Shown one piece after another: positions 32,215-62,435 of a stretch of 64,000 nt of DNA. The position numbers and the translations under genes were made by a program. Position 1 is the first letter of the stretch. Every line of letters begins with the position of its first letter. Source of the stretch: Owenia fusiformis (taxonomy: Eukaryota > Annelida > Polychaeta > Sabellida > Oweniidae); assembly GCA_903813345.2 (NCBI GenBank), contig CAIIXF020000010.1, forward strand, positions 6,689,169-6,753,168, written 5' to 3'. The notes under the pieces were generated by a model. That model saw only the letters and a list, made by a program, of their open reading frames with translations. It did not search any database and had not been told where the DNA came from.

Positions 32215-32377
32215 TTATAATTCGGCCTTCTTGGCTTTTCCCTTTCTAGTAAATCCACTTAGTTCCTCTGTTGCTTCTGCTGCAAGATATTTGACAAAAT
32301 CATCAACTTCACGTCCACCATTGTATTGTTTTGGGTTCTGTTTGTTTCCTTTGGGAGCAAAGTAGATTGTTGGGAAT
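32215..32377 (-). CDS. PDIA3: PDI last exon with C-terminal KAEL
   Basis: Reads (G)[20 protein letters not shown] and ends [10 protein letters not shown]-stop. FPT is the cis-proline loop of a'. The basic tail and KAEL correspond to the ER-retrieval end of PDIA3 (QEDL in human) and PDIA4 (KEEL). Confidence 0.92.
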
Positions 32378-35300
32378 CTGGAAATAACAAGGACAATTTT
32401 TCATGACTTCTCATTTTCAACTGGGTGCAAATGGATTTTCAGGTGGGTGCAAGCCTATTTTCAAAATCTCAGGTTGGTGCTGCGTGGGTAGATCACTGCA
32501 ATTAATACCATAGCCTTTTCACATATAAAGTACACATAGACAATGTACTTGCAAATGCTCCCAGTCTTCATAAAATATATAAAATGAAAATTGAAATAAT
32601 TCATACAAGTAAGAGACAATTCCTTACCCTTTGACATTATACTGTGGGGGTACATCATTGGCTGTGGCATCCATCTTGGCAATTACAATACTCTCCTCCT
32701 TGGCAAGCTACAATAAGACAACAAACAATTGAAATAATGTAATCAAGGTTTTTTCAAGGATAAATGCTAACACCTCACAAACACAAGTTATAGGGGTCCA
32801 AAAAACCCACGGTTTATATTTTTACATCTCATATTTTTAGATTCAGGCACCTCCAATAAACTGATCATGACACATATAAGAACCCATCAATGTTTATGTT
32901 TCTTTATTTCCTCCGTTTTATTGGAGAGCAAAACAATTTATACATGCATATCACATTACAAACATATATTACAGAATAGTAAGGGGTTATTAATATTTAC
33001 ATATTTACAAGTTAAATGACTCTAAATACATTTTATCATTACAATTCAAGCGTACCTATTTGAAATACATATTTATATTGTAAAATGTATTTGCACATTC
33101 GATAACGAACATTTCATAAATGGTGTCATTGGCTACATCAAAATCTATTCTGCTACCCAGAACAGTCTGTAAGAAAATATCATCATCAAAATTGAAAAGC
33201 ATAACACTATCTTGAACTGGTAAGATATCAATGAGTCGCTCAAAAAATGCGTCTCTCTCAGATAAAAATTGATTGCAATGCAGAAAATGAAATATTATAC
33301 AATTACACGATGAGTTGCATTTCTTACATGTGAATGTCTTATATGAAGGCAATGCAGAAAGCTGCACCAGGTTGGCTAATTGCCATAGATATGATGGGTA
33401 TCGTTTTCCAACGACCCAGGCGAAGCTTGGTTCCAGTTTACAGTGAATGTTCCTAAAAATATGCAGATTATCATTGGCTTCCATTCTTGAAAGCCACTTA
33501 TTTTCCTCTCTGTTGAAAATTTGGAAATGCGATGCTTTTTTAAACAAAACTGTTTTCATAATTGAGCCGGTAAGCAAGAAGGTTTCTGCAACACTCCGTG
33601 CAATATCACAGTCAATGCTCATGACGTCTTTACCAAAACCAAAGTGATTGTTTCCCGGGTTTGTGAGTAGGGACGAGAATCTAAACAGGAATATGTATTT
33701 TGTAACTTCATGAGTGCATCGACATAATCTTGACAAAAAGTTTAATTTCAATTTCTCAATGAAGCTCGATACAGATATTGCACCAAGAGTGGCCAGAACA
33801 ACGTCTGATGCCGTTCTCGCTTCAAAACCTTGAACTACTTTGAATATATGTTTTTGAGCAGTGTTCAGTATATCTTCATCATGCGGTGACAAGTTGTACC
33901 ATAACTCACAACCATATAATGCAGTGGGTAATATAATAGAATACCATAGTCTAATGAACACAAGTGGATTAGCGCCAAATTTATGTAAACGCAAGGTGTT
34001 TTTGATCGAATAAAATTTTGAGTACATTTTCTTTTTTGAGTTGTTAACCAGATTTTCGGTTTCAAAGTTAGTAGTGATAAGGTTACCTACATAGTTTGTG
34101 CTTTGAGTTTCAGGTACTATATCAGTCCCTAGTAGCCACTGACGACTACCTCTGCTTCGAAAAAACTGTTGCTTTGTTTCATTAAATGTCAAAATTGAGC
34201 TTTTAGTGTTATCACCAGCGTGGTAAACCATACGCCATTTTGAACTGTAGCGAAATACAATGTCTAACAGAACTTGCAAATTATGCGCAGAGGAAGCTAG
34301 AAGAGTAGTATCGTCTGCCACCAAAATACACGGAATATCATACGAACCTATCTTAAGACCTGAATGCGCTTCCTTAAGCTCAGTTATGAGTGCGTCAATA
34401 TAGATCAAAAAATAAATCGAACTTGTCACTCTTCCCTGTCCAACTCCCTGATAAATACTAAATTCCCGGGAAAATGAGCCATTGTATAATACACGTGCAG
34501 TGGTATTAGTATAACTTTCTACGATTAGCCTCCATGTTACTCCATTGATACCGAGTGAGAATATTTTCTGAAATAACCCTTTCCTCCACAATAAATCAAA
34601 ACATTTACGATTGTCAAGAAATGCCGAAAATACCATAGAGTCACGTTCCTTGTAGTGAAGTATGATCTCTTTGAGAGCGAAGAGTGCGAACTGACTACTA
34701 CTTCCCTCTTGATAGGCAAATTGTAAAGCGTTGGGGCAGCCTTTGATTTTTAGTTTAGGGGTCATTCGGATGCTGAGAATTCTTTCCCATATTTTTGAGT
34801 TTAATGTTGATTTGTCGAATGTAATGTTCCTTTTTACAACTTGTATTTAGATTTTAGAGTCATATGGACTTGAAATTAATGGCCCTTTATGGCTTTATTT
34901 TGGTCCCTTTCAGATATTTTCAGATAAATATCAACACTGTACCTTTTCAGCCAGCTCATTGTATTTTGGTTCAAGACTCATACAATGTCCACACCATGGT
35001 GCATAAAATTCAATTAGGACATCCTTTGTTTCATCATCTACAAGGTCTGCAAAGTTCTTGCCTACTGCAACCTGAAAGTCAACATTGTAAACTGCACATA
35101 ATTTTAAGGCTCTGGTGATCTACTGAATAATTTGGATTAAAATCACATAGAATGCACAGGACTCTCAAGATCCAGAAAAATACAAAAAGTGAGACAAAAA
35201 GTGAAAATACATTTTGGAAACCTTTCAGAGAATCAAATATTTATAATTGGGAGTTTCTATTCATCTATTTTATTAAAATCTTGGATATTATTGGTTTTCC

Positions 35301-38300
35301 TTTAGTTTTGGTTCAGCAAACATGGTCATTGTGATATAGGGACATTGTTCAAAAGACGAGTTGTGGAAGCATTAATTTAGTTTCATTAGAACGGGGGGTA
35401 AATGATGATTCTGATTTTTGGGGTCCTGGGAACATAAATCTCATGATGTATTTTTCACCCAGTGTAGGGATTAAATCCAGTGACTTAAAAGATGGCATCC
35501 CTCACTTCTCAAGTTTCAATATGGGGTGAAGGGTAATTATAATCCACAAATGTTGATAATAAGACACCATCTCATAGCCAAACTTAAAGTTCACCTACCT
35601 TAACTGCATTTTCGGAGTTCTCTGGGATAGCCTCAGATTTCATATATGGTTCAAGTTTGTTGTCTAAGAAGTCATTTACAAACTTTTCAAATGTGTCAAT
35701 GCTGCAAAGAAAATATGAAATGAATTAGAGGTCTCCCAATATCGATTTATTTATACACAAAACAGGTTGCTTAACTCAAAACTATTTTTGTGTTCATGAG
35801 AATTAAAGTTTAGGTAGTTTCCAACTTTTGAACTTTTTTTAATTAAAATGTAATTTTAACATTTTAATGAAAATATATTTGCTCTCTCATAATATTCAAT
35901 AAAAATCTACATAAAAATCTGAAAAAATACTAACTACATGTATCTCATTAATTATTGGTAATTTTGATCAAGAAAATTACATGAATTATTTAATGTTTCT
36001 GCAATTGAATAAAGACATTTACAGAAAACCCTCAGACCAACATAAAATCAAAGGAAAACAGAAAATTGTGGAAAGCACCCACAATTGGGAAAAGATCGGA
36101 TTCATGATCATACCTGAAATCATCAGTCATGACGAATTTTTGACCTTTGGTGTTCCATGCTCCTACAACAGGAATGTTTTTGACATCTAGAGATAAATCA
36201 ACAATCTCTTGTGAAAACTCAGTTGCACTCGAGACAGCGAAGAAGACCTTTGCTCCACCTTCTGTGATCTTCTTTCCAACTTTCATAACTCTGAAAGGTG
36301 AGGATGCAATATACAGGGTGTCAAAAAACAACAACAGCAACCCTCCCCCCCACAGTAAAAAGTCCTTAATGTTACATAGTTATACCTCATTTGAATGATA
36401 ATTTAATTCTGGAGTTTCTCATCAAATTTCATTTAATAGAACTTTTTGACACAAATCTACAAATTTGTTTGTTGGATCTAAAGAAAGACTGACTGTACAT
36501 TGATGAACATTAAAAACAAGCTTATTTCTCTCAAACGCAATCCAAAATTGTCATACCTGTTCCTCCAGTAGTTTGTACCCTTAGTATTTTTCTTATAATC
36601 AACATCGTAGTATGTAACAATGAGGGGTTTCTGGAACTGCTCCTGGTTACCTTGAGTACGATGTCCCACCAAACCATTGCTGGAAAAACATGCAATATTT
36701 ATCGATTCATGAATATCAACATTCTTCAATGACTACTGCCATTGGTGGAATAACTTTGTGATTGGCAAAATCATAGATATTACATTGACAATGTACAAGT
36801 TGTAATGTACTGAAACCAATTTTAAGTTGAATCTGTTTAAGGTAATCTTGTCCAGTGCCGCTTTTCAAGAAATGAATGCATTAAATAAATTATTATAAAG
36901 GCCTTTACTAAAGTAGATGTGCACACATTTACTTTCCATTTCTTGATGAACCTTTACTGATATATTATAGTTTTCTTACATGTTGTTGTTGACAAATGTT
37001 TTAAGATCAGTGAGATAAAAATAAAATTCAGCTGTGGCTCCTTCCATCTTACTTTGAAGACGCTTGGGACGGAAAATGACAACAGAGCTAATAATAAATT
37101 ATAAAAAATAAGCCATTAGATTATGATGGTGATCTTTATTTTATTCTATTTATGTAGAAAATTCATTGAGAATCACTTCTTAACGATATCTACATATTTT
37201 ATATATACACATACTAGTTGCATTAGCAAGTTTAATAGCAAAGACATATGTTCAGATGAGAGATCTATTTCAAAATCTTCAGCACACAAAGAGTCTTGTG
37301 TCCAAACGTAAAATTTATTTCTAACTCACTCTTTTTGTTTAAATTCTTTATTGATAGTGCTGTCAGTTGAGACACCAAACGTAAAGTCTTCACTTAGAGC
37401 ATCAGCCAGTTTTTTGAAGGTTTTGGCTCCATCACTGTCTGCACTCTCGAAGAAACCTGAAGCACAAAAACACTCAGTTAATGATCATTGCAATATTCAA
37501 ACATTGCTGTATTGAGATATTGCTATTTATTTTTTTTATTTTTTTATTTATTTATTTAGACACTACACTATTTGTAACAGTGGCACTCTCAATGGGTGCG
37601 TCTATACTCAAAAATTAAAACTTTATATACATGGCTTAAAGAAACTTAACTAAAATCACTTTAAAAACATTCATTATGCATTAAAAAATATAAAATCAGA
37701 AGATGTTCTTCAGTAATATTTTATTTAATCTATCTACCGTGACGCTTATATCATGTCCACCTAAAATCCTGGCCTCATCGCCTATTATCCATTTTAATTT
37801 ATCGCTTGTTTCTGACTCAAGGTATACTTCTAAAACTGGACTAGGGACTTGATTTTTCATTTCCAAATAAAACTTGTTTCTCGCAGTTTCATAAGAGGGG
37901 CATTCAAAAAGTCTGTGCTCCAGGGTTTCGATTTTATCTGGGCACTCTTCGCAGTAGGGTGAAATGGGTGGGTTTAGATTTTTCCATTTGGATTTCTCTG
38001 AGTTTAGATTAAACTTACCAGCACGTGCTAAAAATTTTATGCGTGACAACTGGAAGTCATAATCATTATAAAGGTATGTTGCTCTTCCCTTTTTTGGGAT
38101 CAGATTAAGTTGATGGTATTTGTTGAGACTACTTTTTTCCAAAATACCCTCATTTATGTACTTTTTTGAGAGATCTAATATCTGTTTATGGTAACTGTAC
38201 AAAATATTTTCGGCAGTTTCAGAGATACCGCTTAATTGCATCAGTTTGAGGGTAGCATCAATATGTTTAACATAGTTCCAGTGGTTCCCTTTGCCCATTT

Positions 38301-41300: not shown

Positions 41301-44300
41301 GATTTTAGCTTAGCACTGAAAACCTGTTAAAAGATTCATAGCTTGGTCCATTAAAAGGGTAAGAGTTTTTATGTTGTAGTAAACTTTGTGGTTTAACCCT
41401 GGGATAATTGTCTGTTTTGCTACCATTCATGTTAGAGTCTGATTGTTGTAGGGGTCTTGGACACAGGGATTGCTTGTGCCCCAGTTCTTTACATAGATGG
41501 CACCGGACCGTTGCAGGGTGCCAACATGTTGTAACTAGATGTCCTGGTTCACCACATTTTTTGCACTTAATTGTATTGTTTATTGCATTGTTATTGTGGG
41601 TAGTAGGTTTGTAGGCGTTATGTTGCTTTGCTTTGCTAGTGTTTATGTAACCATTTGATGTAGGTCTACGATTGTTCCAGGGGCGGGTTGTATGCTGTGG
41701 TGGATGCTGGGGGGTGTTGTTGGCGTCAGAGTCATATGGGCTGGGTGGTGTCTTTTGTGTGGATTGCTGTGGTCTTTGGGTTGTGCGCTTGGGTGGGGCT
41801 CGCTTGTTTTTAGGTAATGTTATGTCAGATGCCTTTGTTGAAATGTTCAGGTTCTTCAGAAGTCGGTTAGTTCCAGAATCAGATAGGTGTAGGTGGTCAG
41901 CAGCCAGAAAGCCATCATTGATGGACCCATCCTGAAGTTTGAAGATTTTGTCATTGTCGATGAATGTGACTTTCTCATCGGAGCAATGGCAGAGTAAGAA
42001 TCCATTTAGTTGTTCAATTTTGCTTTGGGCATCTGAGTCGTCCATTCTAGGTGTAACACTTGAAACGATGATGTCTTTTGAGCGCTGCTTTGCACCTGCC
42101 AAGAGTAATTTGTAGTCCTCGCATATAAGGTTGACATCATTACCTCGGGCGCAATCATTGCTTCCGACTTGCAGGTAAATTGTGTTGTAGTTAGTGTCAC
42201 CAGATGAAAGTGTTTTATGAACATCTGAAATAGTTCCACCACGCAAGCATTTTACTTCAGTGTTAACAAGCTTGGTTGAGTCTACATCACGCACTATGGA
42301 AGAGCCAATAAGGAGAGAGGGGAGGGTATTGTTTGGCATTGTACTAGCATTGCTCAGTTGTTTTCTAAGTGCAGCATTTTCTCGATGTAATTCCTCCTTA
42401 TCTGCTGTTATCCTAGCGAGTTGTTTAACTAAATCTTCATTAGTTTTTTGCATGTTATTAAGGTTCTTGACACTTTCATTCAGGTCCCTCACCATATTCA
42501 TAACTGTCAGTAAGTCAATAGGATGTGAGGATGTGGGATCTTGGGGTTTGTTAGCCCCTTGCGACGCTTGAGCAGTCTTACGTGGGCGGCCTCTGCGTGG
42601 TTTAGATATCACAGTGCTAGGGCGTGCAGGTTGAGATCTAGCCAGTCTGCGTTTGCTGCGGCGCCGTGTGGGTACACCACTAGCTTGGGGTGGTTCGTTT
42701 GGTGAATTGGTAGGTGTATGTGTAGGTGGTGATACACCTGATTGTCCAGTGTGTGATTGTGCTGGTACTTGGAGGTTTACAGTCTGTGAATTGGCAGGGC
42801 TTGCATCACCTGTTTGTGATTGCATTTCTGGTATACTAGTAGTAGGGCTACTTTGGCTGCTCATAATTGTAGAAAAGCTTCCATCTAATGAGTCATTAGT
42901 AATTAAGTCTTGTGTGAATCCAGGTGGTGTTGAAAGTAGCTGACTTACTGTGGCAAAGTTGGGACTAGCCATAGTGCTAATTACAAGTCCCTATACCGTG
43001 TAGGAAATTAGCTAGCTCACCAAGGCAGTGCCAAGTATGGAGGCTCCAATGTTAGAAATTGAGATTTCCAACTGCAAATGTTCAGAAAATGTACCTTGAA
43101 TTGTTCAGTAATATAATCACAATAGTACTTCCTGAGTTCATCTCCTGATGCACTGTATGTTTATACTAACTCCTATACAGTCCAAAACCACAACTGGTTT
43201 CTATATCCATGTATTTTTGATAAATTATGTGGAGCCAAATTTACTTGTTATTGCTATCTAGCAACCTTGACCTTGACCTTGCTATTGCTTTTATGTTTCA
43301 TATATATATATTATAAAGTATCATAAAAAAATAAATTTGGCAATTTAATTGATAATTTATTATTAATTAATAAACTAAACTAAACTATATGCATGGCTTA
43401 AGATTCTGAATGCTTATTTTTGTGTTCTGAATAAATTATTTTTTATAATGGAAATCTGATGCCCTGTGTCTCATATCCACTTAAATATAACCGATAAGTA
43501 GTTAATTTTGGATTGAATAATAAACAACATCCCCTTTAGTACATCTATATAACAAATATATAGTAGTAACATGATTTTAGAAAGATGATAATTATGAAAA
43601 GATTGATAGAATCCAAAAAATTACGTCTTTTTGGGGAAATATTACACCATCATCCGAATCTATAATTAAATCCTATTTTTAAGAGTGAGATAATATTTCC
43701 AATTGTTTGAGAGAATCCTAAAGACTAGTGAACCCACAATCCCTAGTCATGGAATTAAATGCAACATACCAACAACAACGGCATTATCATCAAAATCTTG
43801 TATATTAACAAATTTCTTGGCATTTTCTACACTGTCAAGGACTTTGGTTGTTGGTTCAGCCTTCTTCTTCATGTATCCGATAATTCCGTCTGAAATATAT
43901 GGAAATCAGCGTTTTGACATCTAAAAGGACCACCCTCCAAATGCAGGGCTTATCAGAGCTCATCTACATGTTTTCCTCCTTTGAAATATGTTCAAAGTAC
44001 TGCTTTGGGAGGAATGAAACAAATACTCAATATGCAGAACAATATCAAAATATCAATATTGCCAACAATTTTTCAAATTTTTTATAAACTATTCTGTTAG
44101 ATTTATCTATCCTTAGTAATATATTTTTCTTCAATGAATGTAATTATATTTTAATTTAGATTCTGTTACTAATATACTGAAGTCACAATCAATCAATTTG
44201 CAAAGGATGGGCTCATTTTCTAGAAAAATCAAAGGCTAAATGACTGACATTTAGAGCGGAAATAATTGATTGAATTTGTTCAATTAAAGCATTTTCTTGA

Positions 44301-47300
44301 CATTTATGATTTTTTAAATGAGAACAAATCCTTTGTATTGCACTTTGCTGAAACTTTCACAATAAGCATGTTTATACTGTGCATCTATTTCATCTGAAAT
44401 AGAGGATGTAAGGCAAGAGTGAATTTAAATTCTGTTTAACATCATGAATGGATAACAAAGTTTTATATTTAACTCGATAGGGATCGTGAACATTTGCATA
44501 TCTATGTACAGTAGAACCTGTTAATGAGAAACACATTGTTCATTGTAGGTAGGTGTTCACTACAAAGCTTTTATACGAAAGTTTCTAAGTACTGATTCCA
44601 ACTATAAGAACAGGTGTTCCTAAGTGAGGTGTTTGCAAAATACAAAAACTTCAGTCAAAATATACATGAAATGTTGTATCACTGTCAAGCTTGCAGTTGT
44701 ACGATTGGTTTTTACCTTTAATATTGATTAAGGTAAGCTTGTCAGTAAAATAATAAAACAAATATTTCATTCTACTTTATGTGAATACTTGTGGCAGTTT
44801 CACAAAAATATATTCAACTTGCCCTTCTGGCTCTGTGAAATATCATTAATGAAAGATGCACAGATTTTTACCACAATAGAACAAAATATTTGTGTGATCT
44901 TAAATCAGTTTATTTTTCATAAAAGCTGTCTGATTATTATTTTTTCATATATCGTACATGTAGTTAAAAAATCAGGGAGGATATTATGTTAAACAGTTGA
45001 AATATTCACTTTAGCCTAGTTTCATGTTTCTAAACAAGCATAATGTGTATGTGTACAAACTGCAATTATATACAATCATGAAAAAATCCTCTTTTCTGCA
45101 AGCTGAAAATAAATACATTAACATAATATAAAAAAAATATTGAACTCCAACTAAAGCATCATATTTGGGAGAATGTAACAAAATTTAACCAAATAAACAG
45201 ACAAAGACAACTTGAACAATAAAATCTGTATTTAAAACATAACCCGAATGCAAAATGTGATACCAAGTGAAGCACCTTTCTCTATTGATATGAAAGCTTC
45301 ATCAATGGGTTATACCTGTGCATTGAAGTGAGCTAAAATAAAAGAACACACGAACCTAAGAACCTTAAGTTCCACTCTCTGAACCTCTCATCCTTGTAAA
45401 AATTTGCTAAACTGACACTACCCACTCTGTATATCTAACACTTATGAAAGATACTATAGTTGCTGTGAGACGCATGGAAAATTATAAACCACTGGAGAGA
45501 CAATTATTGCATGGGACAGCCACCCAGGCTGATAGAAAATTCTCCCTCACCAAAGTAACTTTTGAATTTTGTACCATGGTATTGAAATTTTCAGAGGCCT
45601 GAGGGGGACTTGAAATTGGCTATTTGGTTGATAAAACATTTGCCAATATTTCTTGTGCATGGAATGTCTGACATGAGCTTTGAGCAGAAAAAGCGATGTA
45701 ATGACCAACGTAAACTCGTGAACTCTCATACATCATCCCTCGAGGTCAGGCGTTCAATGTCCAAGCCCATCCCCTTCATAACTTAGATGTATTCTTCATT
45801 CTCATAATAACCAACCAATTAGTACTGAGAACATCAAAGTAATAAATCACCAAAATAAACCAAGAAATTATAACCACCCTGCCATTTCATATCGCATGGG
45901 TGGTTCTTACCAGAGGTCCTACATCCCTCATTATTTTCTTCATTTTGACCACCTTTAGTGAAAACTTTCATATTGCATATTACTTTGCATGTGCATGCGT
46001 TTTGAATTCAAACAGGTTCCTAAAAATTGAAAGTAACAACATTTAACTGGCTGCTATAGTAGCAACCCATTCTCCACTAGCTGCCATGACGATATAGTAC
46101 ACAAACATTCCCTGTTATCTCTAGAGATCTTACCAGCTTCATCAATGTTACCAGTGTATTCCATACTAAATTCTCCATCACGAAAAATATACATCAGTGG
46201 AAACCCTTTTTCCTCCACGCCATATTTTGCACAGATTCCCTTCGCATTCTCATCGTCACAATCAACCTGACCAAGATTATTTGAGGTTATGAAAACTGTC
46301 TACAAAAGCTATATGTCTAGGATTATGGAACTAAGGAGTGTGGGGTGCATGTGAGTTGGTGTTGCTATGGAAACTGAAATCAGGCCTTTAGACAACATTA
46401 AAAATGTAAATGTATGTAAAGGTTCTGACTTCAAAGTCTGCCATCAACTTGTGCATTCCAACATGCATGGTTTCATATTTTCTGTAGCCTTGGGATAAGA
46501 GTCTTCATCCCAGAAAATTTCAAATTGTTTGCATCAGTAATATTCAAAGTAAAAACATGAAAATGAAAAACATGTCATCCAGTATGTAACCTTACCAGCC
46601 GACATAGGGCCATCATATTTGAAAGACTTTCGTCCTTTTGATTTAAACAATTTTATAGAAGGGTATCCATTAATTTCCTGTTTATCACAAGTGCCCTTTC
46701 CATCCCCTGTACAGTCCACCTAAAAATGAAAAAATTATGAATGTGATTTAGAAGGGTTGCTATGACGATGCAAATCTCCCTCATCTGAAGCAATATTTTG
46801 TACAATCCAGATCAAATACTACTGCACCTACTCAGGACTAAACCACAAAGAATACTTTATTTAATGCAACAACCCCCCCCCCCCCCCCTCTAAACCAAAA
46901 CTCTACATTTATTACCTAACAGCTTCAACTGACAGAATCGAGTCCATGTTACCAGCCAAACTAGCCTGGCTTTTCTTGCTTTTTCCATTCCTACTTCCTA
47001 ACATAAGATAATCTTTGAGGTTTGGTAGTAATGCAAACAACAATACAAACTGTGTTCAGTGATCTAGATTGCACAATTTAAATTATCACATATAAGCAAA
47101 AGCATAGCCTTGCCCAAGTCGGTCTCTTTTACTTATCTTGATTTCTATTATGACCGCCGGTAATAATTCAAGATCAGATGAGTAAAAAATACCGACTTGG
47201 GCAAGGCTATCAAAAGCATAGTTTTCACAATTTATGCTTTATTTGAGCTTTGTGCATACATGCATATTTTATGCACAAAATCTCAATAAAAAATTGGGAA

Positions 47301-50300
47301 AAATATACTCTTTCACACAAAATTGTCCATCCATTAAATGTCTTACCACTCGAGTCTCTAGGCCCCTCATAAGGAGCGCTAACTTCTCCATTTTTGAAGA
47401 TTGTTAGTGTAGGGTACCCGCTAACACCATATTGTTGACATTTGTATTTACCATCACCGACACAATCAATCTAAAAATTGTTTGGTATTTGTTTTTTGCA
47501 TGTACGTTTTTCAAATAAGTTATATAGAGTTATATTTCATTAATTTATTTTGATACTTAAAATAACCTAGGTACATCTATATACTAGTATACAATTTTGA
47601 CATTTCTTAATTACCAATTCAGTTTGTAAAATAAAACTAATCGAACACCGCAAGTACATGTAAGTAATAAACAGTTTATACCGAAAATGATGGCTTCAAT
47701 ATTGTAACTGAATTATAGTGGCTACTGGCTAGTCATAAGTTTTTTTCTCTGACTAGACTTTTTGACAGTTTCCCTTACTCCCCATTACAGGCACATGTTA
47801 GCTGAAACTAACTTATCCCAGGGTAACATCATTTTTGAACTGCATGTTAACATATAGCTATATCTAATTGATTTTCAACATTAAACAACAAATATCTTAG
47901 TTAAATATTTAGCAAATAAAAATACTATTTATAAGACTATTGATTCTTTTATTGTCTAATTTGATTCGCATTGCTTCACTTCACTGATTTACAAAGTTCA
48001 CATTGGTAATCATAAAGCATGAGAAGAGACTGCTAGTTAATTTAGACTCTTGAACAATTTTAGCTAACCTTAGCAAGGGCTACTGGGGGGTCATTCTTCT
48101 TCAAGGTTGTGGCTGCAGTGTCATACTCTGGGGCCAGCCTCTTGCGGGCTCCACACCTAAAAGTAAAGATATTTCACGGTTAAGATCTGAAATATTCCCA
48201 TTTTTATGACATTTTTTCCATGGTGCAGACATATAAAAATCTAAACGCAGCAAACTTTTGGCTCCAATAGTGGTTCGTTACATCTCTGAAATATCACCAG
48301 GCAGACGAAATCTCGCCAAGACAGAAATATTGTGAATCACTCATCTCCGTTTTCTACCACTAGACCAACGGCCATTCATATACTCTATCAGGGTAAATTA
48401 TTTAATCTTCAAGCTAGGCCAATGAGGATTGGCAGGCATTATTCAAACTAGATACTCCATCGCCTGCAGTGGAACAATTTAATAAAACTATTTCTATTAG
48501 GTTCTTTTTAGACCAAGAATTTCATAAGAAGATGTGCATTTCAAATATTATGGTATTCTATACTCATCACTCTCTATCATAAGACACAACACACATTTCT
48601 TCAGTTTCAAGAAATGAGAGCGCTTGGCACGCGTGTTTATTAATGAACATAGTACAACAGTTACATAAATAATGAGAACATGACAATGTATACGCATACA
48701 GTGAGTGAGTTAGTGAATGTCACTGGAAAATACAAAACATTATAACTGCACATGTATGACAATTCGATTGACACCATTAAAACCTCATCCAATTAATTAG
48801 GATTTATGAGGACTCTTAAACTAAGCAAAGACCCAAATTATCGAGGCCAAAATTCAAAAAAGGTCTTTGCAGAGATAAAAAGGTATGCCAATCAAAATAT
48901 CAATTTGTACGATCAAAATCTGACAAAATTTATGAAACATACAGAAATAATATAATCTACAAATTAGGAGTTAAGTGTATTCCTCGCACGCTGGCAAGCC
49001 TCAGAATGACGTGTTCCTAACACTTACTCACTCACTCCAAACACAAATAACCGCCAAACCGTTCAGCCAATAGAAATCATTTATGTTCTCAAGTCGCTAC
49101 ACTGCGTTCCGCTTCACCGAACATAAATAGCTATTCTATACTCATCACTCTCTATCATAAGACACAACACACATTTCTTCAGTTTCAAGAAATGAGAGCG
49201 CTTGGCACTCAGAAGACTAAAGAACGGGCATTGAATGTGGATTTTAAAAAACTTACACAAGAACAAAATAAAATATTAGATTCCAAGATTCTTCGTAACA
49301 CTTAACCTATCACTCAAACTGTCTTTGACATAGCCATCTTTAGACGAATCACTAAGCCAACGGCCGTGTCTCTTAAAGTTTCTGTCAGAAACCGAATGGT
49401 TTGCAGCGGCGCTTGCTCCGCCGGATCTAAGCGAATGCACACCAAATGACTTTGGATTCAAACCAATTTTGCTCAAACAATCTTTAACAATCTCTCTCAC
49501 TCTGGTGTATGACAACTTTTTCTTACAATGTCTAGAGACGAATACACCTTTTTTAAAAGTTAAACCATGAAAAACGTAGTCTGTCTTTGCAAGTTTTACA
49601 TTTATGTTGAGCATATCAATATACCTTTTTAACAATGTATATGGGCATGTAGGTGTGCTTGTTTTAGCAACAACGACGGTAGCACCATCCCTGTATTTAT
49701 CAGTTTTTGAAGTAGCAATGTTGATGCTGAAATGATCACTATAAAAACAAATGTCACCGTATGTTATTGTAGAAAGTTCGTCGTATCTCAAAAATGCTGC
49801 AAAACCAAGAATACACAAAGTCACGTCTCTAAGAGATTTCAAGGAAGTAGCGTGATCCAAAGATGAAACCATAAGAGATAGCATTTCAGGAGTTATTGGC
49901 TCCTTTTTACAAGTTGGTTTGTACTGTGTCCTTTTAGACGCTTCTAAAATGTTGTTGACTAATGGAGAATCACACGGATTTGAAAAACCAGCACTACTGT
50001 GTGCCCAACTTATAGCAGCTTTGATAGCTGATAAAACGCTGTAAGATGAGTTCTCTTCTTTGAGGAATAATAAAAACATAGCAATGTATTTTGGCTCTGC
50101 TGGTAACGTAGTTATTTCTTTATATTGCGAAGCCCAGTCCTGCCATTTCTTGAAATAAAAGGAATACTTCTTGATCGTATTGTCTGCTTTGCTACACTTA
50201 ACTATGGTTGTAATCACTCTATGCGACAAAGCTTTTAAGCTTGAATCTGATACTGCGCCAATGTTTCTCGTACCATGTTCTATCAGCCTGGAAGTACATC

Positions 50301-62300: not shown

Positions 62301-62435
62301 ACAAACCTAGACCCATGTGAAAAAAATAAAAAACACAACTTACCAAGGTGCGAAAAACTCAACGAGAATGATGTCTTCATTATCAACAACCGAATCAAAG
62401 TTACTATCAGTTAGATCTATAACATCACTGGACAT
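32215..62435 (-). CDS. PDIA3: PDIA3/ERp57-like protein disulfide isomerase with alternative exons
   Basis: Exons in order: 62344-62435, 48069-48156, one of 47347-47470 / 46596-46719 / 46134-46266, then 43770-43889, 37330-37456, 36980-37087, 36557-36679, 36114-36290, 35599-35701, 34943-35071, 32628-32707, 32215-32377. All junctions are GT-AG and phases match. With the first alternative the product is 477 residues, close to mature human PDIA3. Domain order is a, b, b', a'. Diagnostic stretches include [45 protein letters not shown] and [10 protein letters not shown]. The family oxidises and isomerises disulfides of glycoproteins in the ER lumen with calnexin/calreticulin. The a-domain site reads CGAR (32-35) instead of CGHC, while a' keeps CGHC (381-384). 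No signal peptide is visible before [10 protein letters not shown]. The C-terminus is KAEL. A stress-type promoter lies upstream. Family assignment is secure; paralogue status and localisation are not. Confidence 0.93.
32395..32490 (+). repeat. Dispersed repeat in the PDI last intron
   Basis: Contains 'cattttcaactgggtgcaaa' and 'caaaatctcaggttggtgct', the motif pair also found near 3.7 kb (inverted) and 10.1 kb. Confidence 0.4.
33056..34844 (-). pseudogene. 5'-truncated CR1/L2-like LINE reverse transcriptase
   Basis: A long minus-strand frame begins mid-domain (in frame before the first ATG: ERILSIR) and covers RT motifs onward: [53 protein letters not shown], then a zinc-ribbon-like C..C region ([11 protein letters not shown]). 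The catalytic box reads VADD rather than the usual Y/FADD and KAFD is KCFD, so activity is doubtful even though the frame is open for 569 codons. The endonuclease and ORF1 are missing, as expected from 5' truncation. It lies in the intron between the last two a'-domain splice junctions, co-oriented with the gene. Confidence 0.8.
34943..35071 (-). CDS. PDIA3: PDI exon with the intact CGHC of domain a'
   Basis: 129 bp, phase 0 at both ends. Reads [20 protein letters not shown], then [23 protein letters not shown]. The catalytic CGHC is intact; the usually basic residue after it is Met (CGHCM). The following exon begins [19 protein letters not shown]. Confidence 0.92.
37696..41265 (-). CDS. LINE ORF2: APE endonuclease and reverse transcriptase
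   Basis: 1189 codons without interruption. The N-terminal AP-endonuclease domain shows its catalytic set: NVQ (about 55), SETFL (E83), GDFNGRL (D195, N197), STIDYIL and GSDHC (D278, H279). The RT domain follows with LDISKAYD (680-686), [10 protein letters not shown] and FADD (779-782). A C..C..H..C zinc-ribbon-like region lies near the C-terminus ([19 protein letters not shown]). It nicks DNA and performs target-primed reverse transcription in the nucleus. The frame starts with ATG 39 bases after the ORF1 stop, so reinitiation or an IRES-like step is expected. Intronic, sense to the host gene. Confidence 0.92.
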   Translation of the reverse strand: MASPPEPVSKSYNSNDTCKSKRPSPNMRPNRGRHRRSRKHKNNVHINNLTLVFNNVQHLGLAKQQELKRFLDNNKVHIMGMSETFLTSNSSLSATFSNHTLHSKPRLGRQGGGIGILTSNTDIKVTNDNLLNSKTDDFERYWIRTKVGDKNLALCVAYYPNDGTSNDKADQLTEELISNVATLESMGDLICVMGDFNGRLREFRNEKRPSPNGNLLELLIEVSNLNVLNLSPRCKGKYTWFRNNLVSTIDYILINDKFNHCFDNMIIDEAGNFSIGSDHCMLISYFNIQAAKAVNISGPFPDNRESPKIWKIDNDSDWKLFEEKLSFRLSNWKSSSFKSLDEMWLNWREIILDVANEVIGHKTISHKLRSFWDNELKQLIKNRKEANKFCRFWRASGITDLEAFQDIWNIYLERKEKVTLYIKRKMIENHIKVITKNASNKSSSSKSYWNTLNMFNQKSNAPIRIAHPKYSDIIIDDPKQVSAIIREYWAKAGNKNRNKHSSVNDFSKDLKHMEMNLTDTVDPTKSIIDQVYFDRECLATHIKKLTNGKAMGTDLIPNEFLKYGGQAISETLFDIFTQCKDFEKFPVQWKEGVLKPLHKSGDQNIQDNYRGITVTSNVYKLFCSIVNVQLTSFCEEENIFGEIQGAFRKGLRLENNIFTMKALCSLRKSERKSTYLAFLDISKAYDVIDRDRMFLALWKKGVRGKLWRLLRQMYHDNKTKVAFGNGNETDWFTQPYGVKQGCVLSTTLFSIIMTDLYDQLINAKVGIKFEEQLIPTLMFADDIVLFANTENELNAMLKIVNEFAVKWGFNFSQKKSKVMVIGKKTDKTKEWSFGDLKLSEVHSYKYLGYIFHKNLRDNDHMNETALKAKKLNGYIKYTLNRHMNVKRIDFGNQLYKSKLLSSVLHSCAIWASDNKSYETRLKSMQYNAGRAIFDIKGTPAYEAIVSDLGWTPMKYTVLKRQVEYYIYIKSKKPTSLNARLLACMEKRFEMGKGNHWNYVKHIDATLKLMQLSGISETAENILYSYHKQILDLSKKYINEGILEKSSLNKYHQLNLIPKKGRATYLYNDYDFQLSRIKFLARAGKFNLNSEKSKWKNLNPPISPYCEECPDKIETLEHRLFECPSYETARNKFYLEMKNQVPSPVLEVYLESETSDKLKWIIGDEARILGGHDISVTVDRLNKILLKNIF
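41305..42972 (-). CDS. LINE ORF1: SGNH esterase-like domain plus two zinc knuckles
   Basis: 555 codons. Ser/Pro/Thr-rich N-terminus, an AT-hook-like RRGRPRK (about 126-132), a short coiled coil (155-210), then an SGNH-hydrolase domain with its blocks intact: IGSSIVRD (Ser 224/225), [16 protein letters not shown] (270-273) and the catalytic Asp-His pair in [10 protein letters not shown] (359, 362). The C-terminal part has two CCHC knuckles ([14 protein letters not shown] and [14 protein letters not shown]). ORF1 proteins of CR1/L2-type LINEs often carry an esterase domain; they bind RNA and may act on membranes. The intact catalytic residues indicate selection for activity. Confidence 0.88.
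   Translation of the reverse strand: MASPNFATVSQLLSTPPGFTQDLITNDSLDGSFSTIMSSQSSPTTSIPEMQSQTGDASPANSQTVNLQVPAQSHTGQSGVSPPTHTPTNSPNEPPQASGVPTRRRSKRRLARSQPARPSTVISKPRRGRPRKTAQASQGANKPQDPTSSHPIDLLTVMNMVRDLNESVKNLNNMQKTNEDLVKQLARITADKEELHRENAALRKQLSNASTMPNNTLPSLLIGSSIVRDVDSTKLVNTEVKCLRGGTISDVHKTLSSGDTNYNTIYLQVGSNDCARGNDVNLICEDYKLLLAGAKQRSKDIIVSSVTPRMDDSDAQSKIEQLNGFLLCHCSDEKVTFIDNDKIFKLQDGSINDGFLAADHLHLSDSGTNRLLKNLNISTKASDITLPKNKRAPPKRTTQRPQQSTQKTPPSPYDSDANNTPQHPPQHTTRPWNNRRPTSNGYINTSKAKQHNAYKPTTHNNNAINNTIKCKKCGEPGHLVTTCWHPATVRCHLCKELGHKQSLCPRPLQQSDSNMNGSKTDNYPRVKPQSLLQHKNSYPFNGPSYESFNRFSVLS
43770..43889 (-). CDS. PDIA3: PDI exon 4: domain a to b linker
   Basis: 120 bp. Takes phase 1 from any of the three alternative exons (G|AC). 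Reads [20 protein letters not shown] and onward to DDNAVVV. It matches the PDIA3 segment that closes domain a and opens domain b. Confidence 0.88.
43890..46133. other. PDI intron between exons 3C and 4
   Basis: AT-rich. I looked for a fourth copy of the alternative exon (a DC..C coding pattern followed by GYP/GFP) on the minus strand and found none. Confidence 0.5.
46134..46266 (-). CDS. PDIA3: PDI alternative exon 3C
   Basis: 133 bp, same phases as 3A and 3B, acceptor 'cttggtcag', donor 'gtaaga'. Reads [20 protein letters not shown], then [24 protein letters not shown]. It has the DC..C pair and YGV but a longer EEKGFP version of the cis-proline loop and an acidic end. Three residues longer than 3A and 3B. 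Confidence 0.85.
46596..46719 (-). CDS. PDIA3: PDI alternative exon 3B
   Basis: 124 bp, same phases as 3A, canonical acceptor and GTAAGG donor. Reads [20 protein letters not shown], then [21 protein letters not shown]. The DC..C pair and cis-proline GYP are kept, but the usual YGV before it is QEI and the following loop is basic (KSKGRKS). It cannot follow 3A in frame. Confidence 0.85.
47104..47210. mobile_element. 107-bp hairpin MITE between exons 3A and 3B
   Basis: 20-bp perfect terminal inverted repeats (ATAGCCTTGCCCAAGTCGGT and its reverse complement), with further inner complementarity. CAAAAGC directly flanks both sides (47097-47103, 47211-47217), extendable to CAAAAGCATAG if the end is placed four bases further in, so a 7-11 bp target-site duplication. 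Confidence 0.85.
47347..47470 (-). CDS. PDIA3: PDI alternative exon 3A
   Basis: 124 bp, phase 0 in and phase 1 out, acceptor 'caatttttag', donor 'gtaaga'. Reads [20 protein letters not shown], then [21 protein letters not shown]. It carries the DC..C pair of PDIA3, the YGV.GYP cis-proline loop and the last strands and helix of the thioredoxin fold. It is the copy most like ordinary PDIA3. Confidence 0.88.
48069..48156 (-). CDS. PDIA3: PDI exon 2: active-site exon with CGAR
   Basis: 88 bp, entered in phase 2 and left in phase 0. It completes Trp31 and reads [20 protein letters not shown] and onward to VALAK. The rest matches PDIA3 closely, but His and the second Cys of CGHC are replaced by Ala and Arg. 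Disulfide exchange by this domain should be lost or limited to mixed disulfides. A 14-kb intron precedes it; I searched that intron for a second, CGHC-type version and saw none. Confidence 0.88.
48390..48545 (-). repeat. Older repeat R, copy 1 (flank of the Ngaro element)
   Basis: Reading on the minus strand, 'agtatctagtttgaataatg' and 'gcctagcttgaagattaaat' are about 75% like 54070-54140 on the plus strand. The two copies flank the Ngaro-like element in inverted orientation. A third, related segment is at 57477-57587. A tRNA A-box-like 'tggtctagtggtag' lies just beyond at about 48357-48370 (minus), so the family may be SINE-like. Confidence 0.5.
48554..48630 (-). repeat. Split direct repeat B2
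   Basis: 77 bp from TATTCTATACTCATC to CGCTTGGCAC on the plus strand, identical to B1 at 49132-49208. Marks the 3' end of the element. Confidence 0.9.
48974..49133 (-). repeat. Split direct repeat A2
   Basis: 160 bp matching A1 at 53839-53998 with one difference (agaatgacg against agaaagacg). It abuts B1 with a 2-bp TA overlap. Confidence 0.9.
49132..49208 (-). repeat. Split direct repeat B1
   Basis: 77 bp identical to B2. It lies between the recombinase stop codon and A2. Confidence 0.9.
49276..50388 (-). CDS. Tyrosine recombinase of the Ngaro-like element
   Basis: 370 codons. All catalytic residues of the family can be placed: Arg201 (AAFLRYDEL), His318-x-x-Arg321 (HSLRSGG), His341 (HGRW) and the nucleophile Tyr353 (DGYVKDS). 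An N-terminal core-binding domain ([13 protein letters not shown]) precedes the catalytic domain. The enzyme would integrate the circular DNA copy of the element without a target duplication. The first 30 residues are hydrophobic and unlike a recombinase, and an acceptor-like 'gtacttccag' lies at residues 31-35, so the frame may really begin after an intron covering the minisatellite. Confidence 0.9.
   Translation of the reverse strand: MKKALLVTTGCTFYFVLYFKYCIIFLIGSGCTSRLIEHGTRNIGAVSDSSLKALSHRVITTIVKCSKADNTIKKYSFYFKKWQDWASQYKEITTLPAEPKYIAMFLLFLKEENSSYSVLSAIKAAISWAHSSAGFSNPCDSPLVNNILEASKRTQYKPTCKKEPITPEMLSLMVSSLDHATSLKSLRDVTLCILGFAAFLRYDELSTITYGDICFYSDHFSINIATSKTDKYRDGATVVVAKTSTPTCPYTLLKRYIDMLNINVKLAKTDYVFHGLTFKKGVFVSRHCKKKLSYTRVREIVKDCLSKIGLNPKSFGVHSLRSGGASAAANHSVSDRNFKRHGRWLSDSSKDGYVKDSLSDRLSVTKNLGI
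50725..51258. repeat. Minisatellite inside the Ngaro-like element
   Basis: The unit 'tgcacaatacgatgtgctaa' recurs about 20 times, with a higher-order variant carrying 'acctcacggggtgcttcc'. It separates the RT/RNase H and recombinase frames. Units are contiguous and variable with no unique spacers, so it is not a CRISPR. Confidence 0.85.
51263..53854 (-). CDS. Gag-like plus reverse transcriptase/RNase H polyprotein
   Basis: 863 codons from the first ATG. That ATG and the next seven codons lie inside repeat A1, so the start is more likely the ATG at 53833 ([10 protein letters not shown]). Residues to about 180 are charged and helical ([20 protein letters not shown]), a Gag-like part. RT follows with [12 protein letters not shown] (D341) and VVAYLDDS (429-432), then RNase H with VYSDASDS (D594), WRELKAVQ (E629) and WLSDNKN (D654). 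The C-terminal part ([31 protein letters not shown]) is typical of DIRS/Ngaro elements. Catalytic residues are intact. Confidence 0.9.
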   Translation of the reverse strand: MRGIHYSMATLDQVRELLTDSFDKLKREIKEDVTENSNKLAKKLKKDEKSLEFKNKGNKIQYEFNAGVIDTFDEISGKLDQLLETPDIDKQQVIMDDLKSSTKEGATTGKSSQAFITGNTVRPTIRHGSTTDMQGSSEKEHNVSQERPIFAFPVARQDIGETSAQVKVNSAAAIASTSKGVVDKLSIVQSSDLFNPSNSDFERLGSKLLVKGNLKRNESFWKGILCANSSVLDIVENGYKIPFVNTPSPAYLKNNQSALKNVTFVNEAIRDLVILGCVTEVDEPPYIVNPLTVATSSTGKQRLVLDLRHPNQYIWHDQVKYEDIVTAKNYLEPGAFMISFDIVSGYHHCDIYPPHRGFLGFSWDFEGTDGREVTQRESKVDLDVKNKVRKYFVFNVLPFGIKTGGLVFTKLFRCLIAHWRSLGLQVVAYLDDSICISKSLPDALNAVEQMITDFSKSGFVVNQQKSKVIPTNKLVWLGFEFDTLGCSIYVPKTKLQNLTEKIQNVLRCRFHVTFRVIAQIVGSIISLKPGMGDICQLMSRHLNRKLMELKYWDSFTALSNTEVKELVFWQSECEAFNGVSFVKAAVPEKLVYSDASDSACAGYIVNFNGESCRKNWSQAEKVKSSTWRELKAVQVVMQSYLAHLKNSAVLWLSDNKNVGSIICKGSMKSDLQELAVSIFQMRRENCIDLRVQWVPREENVLADSMSKEVDSDDWRVKQNMFNFLNKRYGPHSFDRFAASDNALVDKFNSKYYEPTSSGVDAFNFDWGKDNNWLVPPVHLIGKTVKHAVKCKAMGTLVVPKWPSSYFWPLICVNGSYKHFVIDVLEYAHSTKVIEKGNFENTIFGTEKLKSHMLVIRLNGKVGS
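53839..53998 (-). repeat. Split direct repeat A1
   Basis: 160 bp, the 5' end of the element. Near its outer end ATTTATGTTC and GAACATAAAT form an inverted pair about 30 bp apart, possible arm sites for recombinase binding. Genomic sequence resumes at 53999. Confidence 0.9.
54092..54202 (+). repeat. 111-bp inverted repeat R, copy 2
   Basis: From ATAACGGCTTCC to ACTCGGAAGT. The reverse complement is at 57477-57587 with at most a mismatch or two. The pair bounds 3.5 kb of repeats and may be the terminal repeats of a composite element. Confidence 0.85.
54312..54427. repeat. Direct repeat S, copy 1
   Basis: From 'caaaagttaggataaat' to 'attttactgta', about 94% like 59974-60088. The second copy lies next to a tRNA-like sequence, so this may be a SINE body. 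Confidence 0.75.
54560..55575. repeat. Array rich in TGACCTTGA-type motifs
   Basis: Degenerate units of about 110-170 bp, each carrying 'gatattgacctttgacctt', 'ggtcaccttatcattggt' and 'gccttaaaacgtcaaa'-like segments. TGACCT/AGGTCA half-sites occur dozens of times, many as TGACCTTGA, the extended half-site bound by NR5A and ERR nuclear receptors. No coding capacity. Confidence 0.8.
55945..56421. mobile_element. 0.48-kb inverted-repeat MITE
   Basis: Nearly the whole sequence folds back: outer arms share 'aaccgttttggta' and 'gaaggtac', and inner arms share 'cagaagacaacagaatcg' (56129 on) with its complement near 56230-56247. A partial copy of the left arm is at 59743-59880. Confidence 0.8.
56422..57219. 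mobile_element. 0.8-kb element with 21-bp perfect TIRs
   Basis: It begins CTATCACACCAAACTAGTTC and ends in the exact reverse complement. A further inward copy of the right end (TTTGGTGTGATAG) is at about 56820-56833, 386 bp before the real end, so it contains an internal duplication. The interior is full of 'cgttcgta', 'cagtcc' and 'agtacgt' repeats. The 76-residue frame at 57076-57306 is a by-product. Confidence 0.8.
57253..57335 (+). repeat. Inverted repeat T, left copy
   Basis: Shares 'aaaaaggtgac.cgaaagggc', 'taaacggct.gccccaagg' and 'caaaaa.atgagtttgaaaaa' with the reverse complement of 61870-61951. The pair could be the ends of an older 4.7-kb element into which others inserted. Confidence 0.7.
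57477..57587 (-). repeat. 111-bp inverted repeat R, copy 3
   Basis: Reverse complement of 54092-54202. See that entry. Confidence 0.85.
57590..58165 (+). repeat. G+T-rich degenerate repeat
   Basis: Loose units of 'ggttgtgtt', 'ctgattgtg' and 'ttgtgtc' for about 575 bp, with very few C on this strand. The plus-strand frames in it (57754-57960, 57973-58167) are low-complexity Val/Leu/Cys strings and not genes. Confidence 0.6.
58474..59374. mobile_element. 900-bp near-perfect palindrome (423-bp arms)
   Basis: Bases 58474-58896 and 58952-59374 are reverse complements with only a few percent difference, around a 55-bp centre. Each arm itself begins CGGGACGTAT near its outer end and ends ATACGTCCCG at its inner end, so each looks like a whole TIR element and the palindrome may be two copies inserted head to head. 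The same 75-residue frame ([14 protein letters not shown] and on) occurs in both arms as a consequence. Confidence 0.9.
59560..59750. repeat. Cluster of TCTACGACA/TGTCGTAG motifs
   Basis: TACGACA or its complement TGTCGT(A/G) occurs about eight times, including a hairpin 'cgacaccccatgggggtgtcg' near 59577-59597. Probably the end of an inverted-repeat element. Confidence 0.5.
59743..59880 (+). repeat. Partial copy of the 55945 MITE left arm
   Basis: 138 bp matching 55945-56082 with few differences, from 'tttttggaaacga' to 'aacgtgtatca', where similarity stops. Confidence 0.85.
59974..60088. repeat. Direct repeat S, copy 2
   Basis: 115 bp matching 54312-54427. It is next to the tRNA-like segment at 60130-60195. 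Confidence 0.75.
60130..60195 (-). repeat. tRNA-like sequence, probably the head of a SINE
   Basis: On the minus strand 'tagttcaggtggtagagc' matches a tRNA D-arm and A box, and 'ctaggtttgattag' a T-arm and B box (usually GGTTCGANTCC), at the right spacing. No good acceptor stem and a poor anticodon stem, so not a functional tRNA gene. Confidence 0.5.
60740..61030. mobile_element. 0.29-kb inverted-repeat MITE
   Basis: 'atctttccgaacct.attgg' to 'ggttgattttaaaaaagtat' on the left is repeated in reverse complement on the right (60912-61020), with a short AT-rich loop. No coding capacity. Confidence 0.75.
61366..61640. repeat. Inverted repeat around 'tttttggcaaag'
   Basis: 'tttttggcaaagcaaataat' plus 'tatagggg.ccacacaagg' near 61371-61415 faces its complement at about 61585-61637. 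Another MITE-like foldback in PDI intron 1. Confidence 0.65.
61870..61951 (-). repeat. Inverted repeat T, right copy
   Basis: Reverse complement partner of 57253-57335. Confidence 0.7.
62137..62303. mobile_element. 167-bp MITE next to PDI exon 1
   Basis: TGTGGGGTTGATCTTTCAAA at the left end is complemented at the right end (TTTGAAAAATCAACCCCACA), with inner arms sharing 'ttgaaatctt'. It lies about 40 bp inside intron 1 from the exon 1 donor. Confidence 0.75.
62344..62435 (-). CDS. PDIA3: PDI exon 1: start of domain a
   Basis: Encodes [20 protein letters not shown] and onward to FFAP plus the first two bases of Trp, then a GTAAGT donor. The ATG is at the place where mature PDIA3 begins (SDVLELTD in human). 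Upstream in frame there are 15 codons without ATG, then TAG; an ATG beyond the stop gives only MYTL. Acceptor-like sequences (ttctcacaag, and 'gtccag' inside the start) leave open a separate signal-peptide exon upstream. Confidence 0.85.

Follow-up and report, generated by a model that had tools for sequence, protein, structure and literature searches.

A probable array of six alternative exon 3 cassettes in a PDIA3 gene of the annelid Owenia fusiformis

A PDIA3 (ERp57) gene of the annelid Owenia fusiformis, which encodes a protein disulfide isomerase (PDI) of the endoplasmic reticulum (ER), carries six tandem versions of exon 3, and mutually exclusive splicing of these cassettes probably retunes the redox chemistry and substrate contact of one domain (the a domain) of the enzyme. 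The analyzed stretch (the window; 64,000 nucleotides (nt) of contig CAIIXF020000010.1, hereafter C10, assembly GCA_903813345.2, positions 6,689,169 to 6,753,168) contains one of three tandem copies of this gene (copy 1), in which three cassettes (3A, 3B, and 3C) are present. Only one of the three copies (copy 3) is intact, and its array is located 65 kb from that of the window. The region examined comprised 134 kb of C10 (the window and seven adjoining pieces) and the whole-genome searches covered the 498-Mb genome; the results on anatomy and selection rest on one animal genome. Coordinates above 64000 continue from the window end (C10 position = 6689168 + number).

Exon 3 array of the intact copy

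The identity of the gene was established with the copy 3 isoform containing cassette 3E, which reached 522.8 bits with TIGR01130 (cutoff 344.25) and whose best PDB match was human PDIA3 (6eny_D; 491 bits, over positions 1-472 of 477). The copy 3 protein has CGHC in both the a and a' domains, starts with the signal-peptide-like MQKFIVFAALVAVTFAS and ends with KAEL (both read by eye). It shares with human PDIA3 the a-b-b'-a' organization, the two CGHC sites, and the location of the Cys pair and the GYP loop within the same segment. To our knowledge, one version of this segment is known for human PDIA3.

Among the 12 exon positions of copy 3, that of exon 3 is occupied by an array of about 2.8 kb, with the order 3A-3B-3C-3D-3E-3F; on the minus strand, exon 2 of this copy ends at C10:6801918 and its exon 4 begins at C10:6796879. 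The cassettes (115-133 nt) differ in length by multiples of 3, all of them being 1 mod 3, with an AG acceptor upstream and a GTAAG or GTAAT donor downstream in every case (by consensus). Since every cassette is 1 mod 3 and links phase 0 to phase 1, the frame is shifted when cassettes are skipped or combined: 6 of the 64 possible subsets were open, i.e., the six single cassettes (491-497 amino acids (aa)), and the other 58 were broken. In the proposed mechanism, tandem exon duplication would have produced six alternative third exons in an animal PDIA3 gene, one of which would be spliced per mRNA between exon 2 (phase 0) and exon 4 (phase 1), and wrong products would hit an early stop and be lost to nonsense-mediated decay. 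Mutual exclusion itself is what we infer from the frame.

The sequence-only reading had described three such exons in the window, and on rechecking their places, lengths, splice sites, and phases all agreed, as did the end of exon 2 (48069) and the start of exon 4 (43889). The window cassettes are free of in-frame stops, are 1 mod 3 in length, and are each flanked by an AG acceptor and a donor reading GTAAGA or GTAAGG, and the DC..C pair and the cis-proline, also reported earlier, are present in 3A, 3B, and 3C. The claim that one cassette only fits the frame was confirmed as well, since 3 of the 8 window subsets were open, all of them singles (477, 477, and 480 aa), and the remaining ones (none, AB, AC, BC, and ABC) stop early. 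A tandem, phase-locked alternative exon 3 of the PDIA3 a domain is even more strongly supported by the six cassettes of the intact copy, whereas the window copy, a degraded duplicate, is not the working one.

The distinctness of the array was evaluated in searches of the 134-kb region. For a pattern consisting of AG, [VILMKA]xC(4-12)C, an open frame, and GT, with a length of 1 mod 3, the minus strand contained 17 start sites and the plus strand 2; 14 of the 17 minus-strand sites were cassettes of the three arrays and three were not. A profile of the six cassettes gave 15 strong matches, all of them array members (six being the profile's own input), and beyond these and a remnant of 3F in the window (E 0.079) no profile match below E 2.5 was found in the 134 kb. 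In the whole-genome searches, close matches to the 3A, 3B, 3C, and 3D proteins and to exon 7 were confined to the three C10 loci; for 3D, two of the three loci gave close matches, and the weaker ones were other PDI-like loci. Cassettes 3E and 3F were not separate queries and were recovered via the 3A search. No like array, defined as two consecutive exon-3-like matches without exons of another domain between them, was found in other PDI genes by a profile scan of nine pieces from six further Pfam thioredoxin groups, which left out some thioredoxin loci (e.g., C7:34623761-34625032 and C1:23067703-23069138).

In the alignment to the PDB match, the cassette corresponds to the stretch of mature human PDIA3 that begins at VDC and ends near GPRTAD, a segment that we take to comprise the end of beta3, the Cys pair, alpha3, the cis-proline loop, beta4, beta5, and the start of the beta5-alpha4 loop. 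Both Cys, the cis-Pro, Gly28, Tyr34, and Gly36 are invariant in all six copy 3 cassettes, and those closest to human PDIA3 are 3A and 3E. The Pfam Thioredoxin scores of domain a were 104.6 (3A), 93.8 (3B), 87.2 (3C), 83.4 (3D), 106.4 (3E), and 102.2 bits (3F), compared with 62.0 bits without a cassette and 60.6 and 60.3 bits with two hand-scrambled ones, which indicates that even 3D, the strangest cassette, contributes a thioredoxin-like signal.

The cassettes differ at an arginine which, by position, is presumably R120 of human PDI. It is kept in three of the six (GPR in 3A, 3E, and 3F), and 3B, 3C, and 3D have GPM, GNI, and GDF, respectively; in the a' domain of this protein, the corresponding residues are GGR. 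In PDIs, the arginine of the beta5-alpha4 loop tunes the active-site cysteine (work from 2004, as cited in the relevant part of PMC3017771). The loss of this residue in half of the cassettes would be expected to alter redox behaviour.

Exon shuffling from another PDI gene was considered as the source of the odd cassettes and rejected, tandem duplication being simpler, although 3C is less clear. The best PDB match of 3D with its constant flanks was PDIA3's own domain (2alb_A, E 4.3e-5). For 3C with constant flanks, the best PDB row was TXNDC5 (8eky_M, three stretches, E 1.3e-10), followed by PDIA3 (E 4e-8).

Selection on the cassettes

In pairwise NG86 distances among the copy 3 cassettes, the proportion of nonsynonymous differences (pN) was lower than that of synonymous ones (pS) in 14 of the 15 pairs (10/10 without 3D and 4/5 with 3D), and in the ten pairs without 3D pS reached 0.55-0.81, i.e., near synonymous saturation. 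A codon model written for this analysis was run on all 105 unrooted trees of the six cassettes. The one-ratio dN/dS (nonsynonymous to synonymous rate ratio) ranged from 0.098 to 0.148 over these topologies, and on the best tree a value of 0.108 was favoured over 1 with twice the log-likelihood difference (2dlnL) equal to 47.9. Single leaves were tested against dN/dS=1 with a cutoff of 2dlnL>3.84. On the best tree the 2dlnL values were 1.79 (3A), 0.18 (3B), 2.21 (3C), 5.35 (3D), 5.80 (3E), and 0.01 (3F), and on a tree fixed beforehand (one start, kappa 2) 2.00, 3.11, 3.33, 3.41, 13.34, and 0.00, respectively. Purifying selection on the array as a whole and on 3E is therefore clear at the level of this model, and on 3D it is likely. 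The earlier suggestion of selection on the cassettes, for which dN/dS had been proposed as the check, thus applies to the array as a whole and is not shown for each cassette.

A comparison between the gene copies was dropped as a per-cassette test, with 0-7 changes per cassette, two of the three copies damaged, and uneven divergence. Its pooled dN/dS values (without 3D) were 0.63 (copy 1 vs. 3) and 0.34 (copy 2 vs. 3) for the cassettes, and 0.52 and 0.97, respectively, for the constant exons.

Window copy and tandem duplicates

The three PDIA3 copies are arranged in tandem on the minus strand of C10 with a spacing of about 30-35 kb (Table 1), copies 2 and 3 being located upstream of the window copy. 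The window copy reads CGARKRL in exon 2, where the intact copy has CGHCKRL, so that the resolving Cys of its first active site is lost, while a' keeps CGHC. Its exon 1 begins with MSSDV instead of MQKFIVFAALVAVTFASDV, the signal-peptide codons being missing. A deletion of about 1.4 kb, with its junction at 45967/45968, corresponds to a jump from copy 3 position 110836 to 109423 and removed two and a half cassettes (all of 3D and 3E together with the 5' half of 3F). The reading frame of copy 1 is nevertheless uninterrupted across its 12 exon positions, up to the stop codon, with any of its three cassettes. Its constant exons carry 7 synonymous and 8 nonsynonymous changes of their own, a hint of some constraint (one-sided P=0.027) that gene conversion could also account for. 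It is unlikely that a cassette swap retunes a working domain in the window copy, given the CGAR site and the lack of a signal peptide; the functional subject is copy 3.

Copy 2 shares the loss of the signal peptide with copy 1; its first active site is CGAC, no donor follows exon 1, and 3B has a stop. Its own changes in the constant exons were 2 synonymous and 19 nonsynonymous. In two array introns the copies differ by 2.0-4.1% substitutions (2.6-4.1% vs. copy 3), and around exon 4 by about 8% (alignment identity 86.8%, 60 gaps, 1,131 columns); this uneven divergence suggests gene conversion. Degradation of copies 1 and 2 is shown by the lesions listed above, and the gene appears to have been duplicated in tandem after the array arose, the window holding one of the two degraded duplicates.

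Table 1. Exons and cassettes of the window copy, and the copies and cassettes of PDIA3 on C10.
Feature	Position	Strand	Remarks
Copy 1		minus	window copy; degraded duplicate
Exon 1	62344..62435	minus	ends ...FFAPW; without the signal-peptide codons of copy 3
Exon 2	48069..48156	minus	CGAR where copy 3 has CGHC
Remnant of exon 3 array	46134..47470	minus	three cassettes (3A, 3B, 3C)
Cassette 3A	47347..47470	minus	124 nt; keeps GPR arginine
Cassette 3B	46596..46719	minus	124 nt; Met at Arg position
Cassette 3C	46134..46266	minus	133 nt; Ile at Arg position
Cassette 3F, 3' half	45911..45968	minus	donor retained; profile E 0.079, frame starting 46007
Exon 4	43770..43889	minus	downstream partner common to all cassettes
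Exon 5	37330..37456	minus	
Exon 6	36980..37087	minus	in-frame shortening by 9 nt relative to copy 3
Exon 7	36557..36679	minus	
Exon 8	36114..36290	minus	
Exon 9	35599..35701	minus	
Exon 10	34943..35071	minus	a' domain, CGHC intact
Exon 11	32628..32707	minus	
Exon 12 and stop	32215..32377	minus	C-terminus KAEL
Copy 2	about 93563-67600	minus	degraded duplicate
Copy 3	114042-103733 (C10:6792901-6803210)	minus	intact by every feature inspected
Copy 3 cassette 3A	C10:6801178-6801298	minus	121 nt
Copy 3 cassette 3B	C10:6800648-6800771	minus	124 nt
Copy 3 cassette 3C	C10:6800186-6800318	minus	133 nt
Copy 3 cassette 3D	C10:6799868-6799982	minus	115 nt
Copy 3 cassette 3E	C10:6799566-6799686	minus	121 nt
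Copy 3 cassette 3F	C10:6798534-6798657	minus	124 nt

Several repeats and element-like sequences were noted in these genes. Intron 1 of copy 1 contains, by eye, a DIRS-like element with reverse-transcriptase-like and tyrosine-recombinase-like frames (53881-51266 and 50394-49279, minus strand), the latter being followed by an identical 77-base sequence at 49208-49132 and 48630-48554, about 580 bases apart. Frames resembling those of long interspersed nuclear elements (LINE), also recognized by eye (561, 1202, and 596 aa between stops), are located in introns 4 and 10 (42990-37699 and 34846-33059, minus strand). The 3A-3B intron of copy 1 has an inverted repeat at 47208-47106 with 18-base arms AGCCTTGCCCAAGTCGGT (47208-47191 and 47123-47106), which is missing from the same intron of copy 3 and looks like a small mobile element. 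In the 3E-3F intron of copy 3 (C10:6798855-6799097), many overlapping copy 2/copy 3 matches form a tandem-repeat-like pattern.

Cassette choice, competing explanations and significance

The introns between the copy 3 cassettes are 406, 329, 203, 181, and 908 nt long, and all splice sites are ordinary-looking GT-AG; plain steric exclusion needs shorter introns than these. Docking/selector pairing of the Dscam type was not established by two complementarity scans of the copy 3 introns, both of them simple searches of low power. In one scan (40 shuffles, three statistics), 4, 7, and 3 of 40 shuffles were as good as intron 2-3A, and 39, 34, and 21 of 40 as good as intron 3F-4. In the other one (3 shuffles per comparison), in which the C-D intron still contained 3D, intron 3F-4 gave a best mean energy of -25.4 vs. 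-21.4 to -21.9 in shuffled sequences, with one partner at -34.0, but its weakest link was -18.4 vs. -18.9 to -19.7, and overall no weakest-link energy was better than that of the best shuffle. The mean-energy excess of intron 3F-4 was not borne out by the 40-shuffle scan, which used a different score. It was also observed that four of the seven copy 3 introns contain GTCATGGCAA with no more than one mismatch, vs. at most three in five shuffles. The basis of choice that can be demonstrated in the nucleotide sequence is the frame filter.

A rather unlikely alternative is that the function lies with a single default cassette, 3E or 3A being the most canonical, and the rest are old, drifting duplicates, rarely or never spliced, so that no switch exists. 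The strongest constraint was indeed found in 3E, and 3A and 3E are the best matches of human PDIA3. Several further results weigh against a six-cassette switch, including the above-mentioned outcome of the docking/selector scans. The frame logic is weak alone, because fresh exon duplicates share their length mod 3 anyway, and, since neutral simulations with 0.3-1 substitutions per site left a lone 120-nt exon open in 19-36% of runs, one open cassette is weak evidence. The 3D-3B pair is reversed (pN 0.61 > pS 0.55), and on the best tree dN/dS=1 was not rejected for the 3A, 3B, 3C, and 3F leaves, with ratios of 0.56 in 3B and 0.77 in 3F. On the pre-fixed tree only 3E rejected dN/dS=1, and 3F had a ratio of 1.07. 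Constraint on 3A, 3B, 3C, and 3F separately is thus undecided. Moreover, something akin to the cassette decay which the sequence-only reading had named (for relatives) as evidence against its own view is seen within this genome (3D, 3E, and half of 3F gone from copy 1, and the stop in 3B of copy 2), although both of these copies are damaged throughout. Nevertheless, with pS near saturation, the six cassettes are all open, phase-true, and provided with splice sites and six invariant residues, dN/dS=1 is rejected for the array, and the divergent 3D rejects it on the best tree, though not on the pre-fixed one.

That copies 1 and 2 are functional genes too, encoding, e.g., a PDIA3-like protein that lacks a signal peptide and stays in the cytosol, seems quite unlikely. 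The openness of copy 1 with each of its three cassettes is consistent with this possibility, as are its 7 synonymous to 8 nonsynonymous changes, which are more synonymous than the unconstrained site counts predict, but gene conversion would mimic such constraint, and the CGAR site, the lost signal peptide, the half-deleted 3F, and the transposon-like frames (by eye) in introns 1, 4, and 10 of copy 1 point the other way, as do the 2 synonymous to 19 nonsynonymous changes, the 3B stop, and the missing donor after exon 1 in copy 2. An assembly artefact, in which uncollapsed haplotypes or mis-joined repeats would have created the three copies or the additional cassettes, is very improbable. Tandem copies about 30-35 kb apart, with two array introns so similar, could raise this suspicion, but the copies differ structurally (the signal-peptide deletion in copies 1 and 2, the inserted elements, and the deletion from 3D into 3F) and show about 8% substitutions in the region of exon 4, all of them are located on one 37.5-Mb contig with zero N in the 134 kb, and the six cassettes, confined to some 2.8 kb of a single copy, are far too divergent for alleles.

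The best-known splicing arrays belong to receptors, channels, and muscle proteins. According to the relevant part of one survey, mutually exclusive exon clusters consist of homologous tandem exons of similar length at the same position and in the same phase, one choice keeping the frame, and clusters validated in human comprise between 2 and 10 exons (PMC5740500). The PDIA3 array resembles the Dscam and muscle Mhc-type clusters in being tandem, of the same phase and similar length, and in the single choice that keeps the frame; unlike them, it belongs to an ER oxidoreductase, exchanges one half of a catalytic thioredoxin domain, and was read from the genomic sequence. The terms "PDI", "disulfide", and "thioredoxin" are missing from the main text of PMC5740500, and "disulfide", "PDIA", and "thioredoxin" from that of PMC9741552 (the supplementary gene lists were outside this check). 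For human microglia, rMATS mutually exclusive exon ("MXE") events were reported for PDIA3, with no homologous duplicated exons mentioned alongside in the relevant part of the article (PMC11346782). Duplicated exon 3 cassettes of PDIA3 were not found in searches of the open-licence PubMed Central literature.

The nearest enzyme precedent that we met is the oyster alternative oxidase, in which exon 10 is duplicated and one version, altering residues near key functional sites, is dominant under air-exposure stress (as described in the relevant part of PMC5589949). In both cases, an exon of a redox enzyme has been duplicated in an invertebrate. The oyster gene differs in having two versions rather than six, in its last exon, in a mitochondrial enzyme and with expression measured, whereas the PDIA3 array was read from the genome.

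The b-b' region of ERp57 is the site of calnexin/calreticulin docking. In the proposed scheme, this region, the CGHC site, and a' would stay constant, and the substrate-facing loop and the arginine would vary with the cassette. Splicing would then probably alternate between an a domain that cycles fast as an oxidase/isomerase and versions that are slower or hold longer and make other substrate contacts, and the choice of cassette may be controlled by tissue or stress. We suggest only tentatively that the balance of oxidase/isomerase cycling and substrate holding is set in this way, six substrate-facing loops giving a regulated redox-chaperone repertoire from one gene.

A general ER folding enzyme is an unexpected place for mutually exclusive exons; the swapped part is half of a catalytic domain and includes redox-linked residues. 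If the proposed splicing is true, the array would offer six naturally occurring a domains within the same protein framework, with which the cis-proline loop and the conserved arginine could be probed in vivo, and it would bear on whether animals set oxidative folding by splicing or by extra PDI genes.

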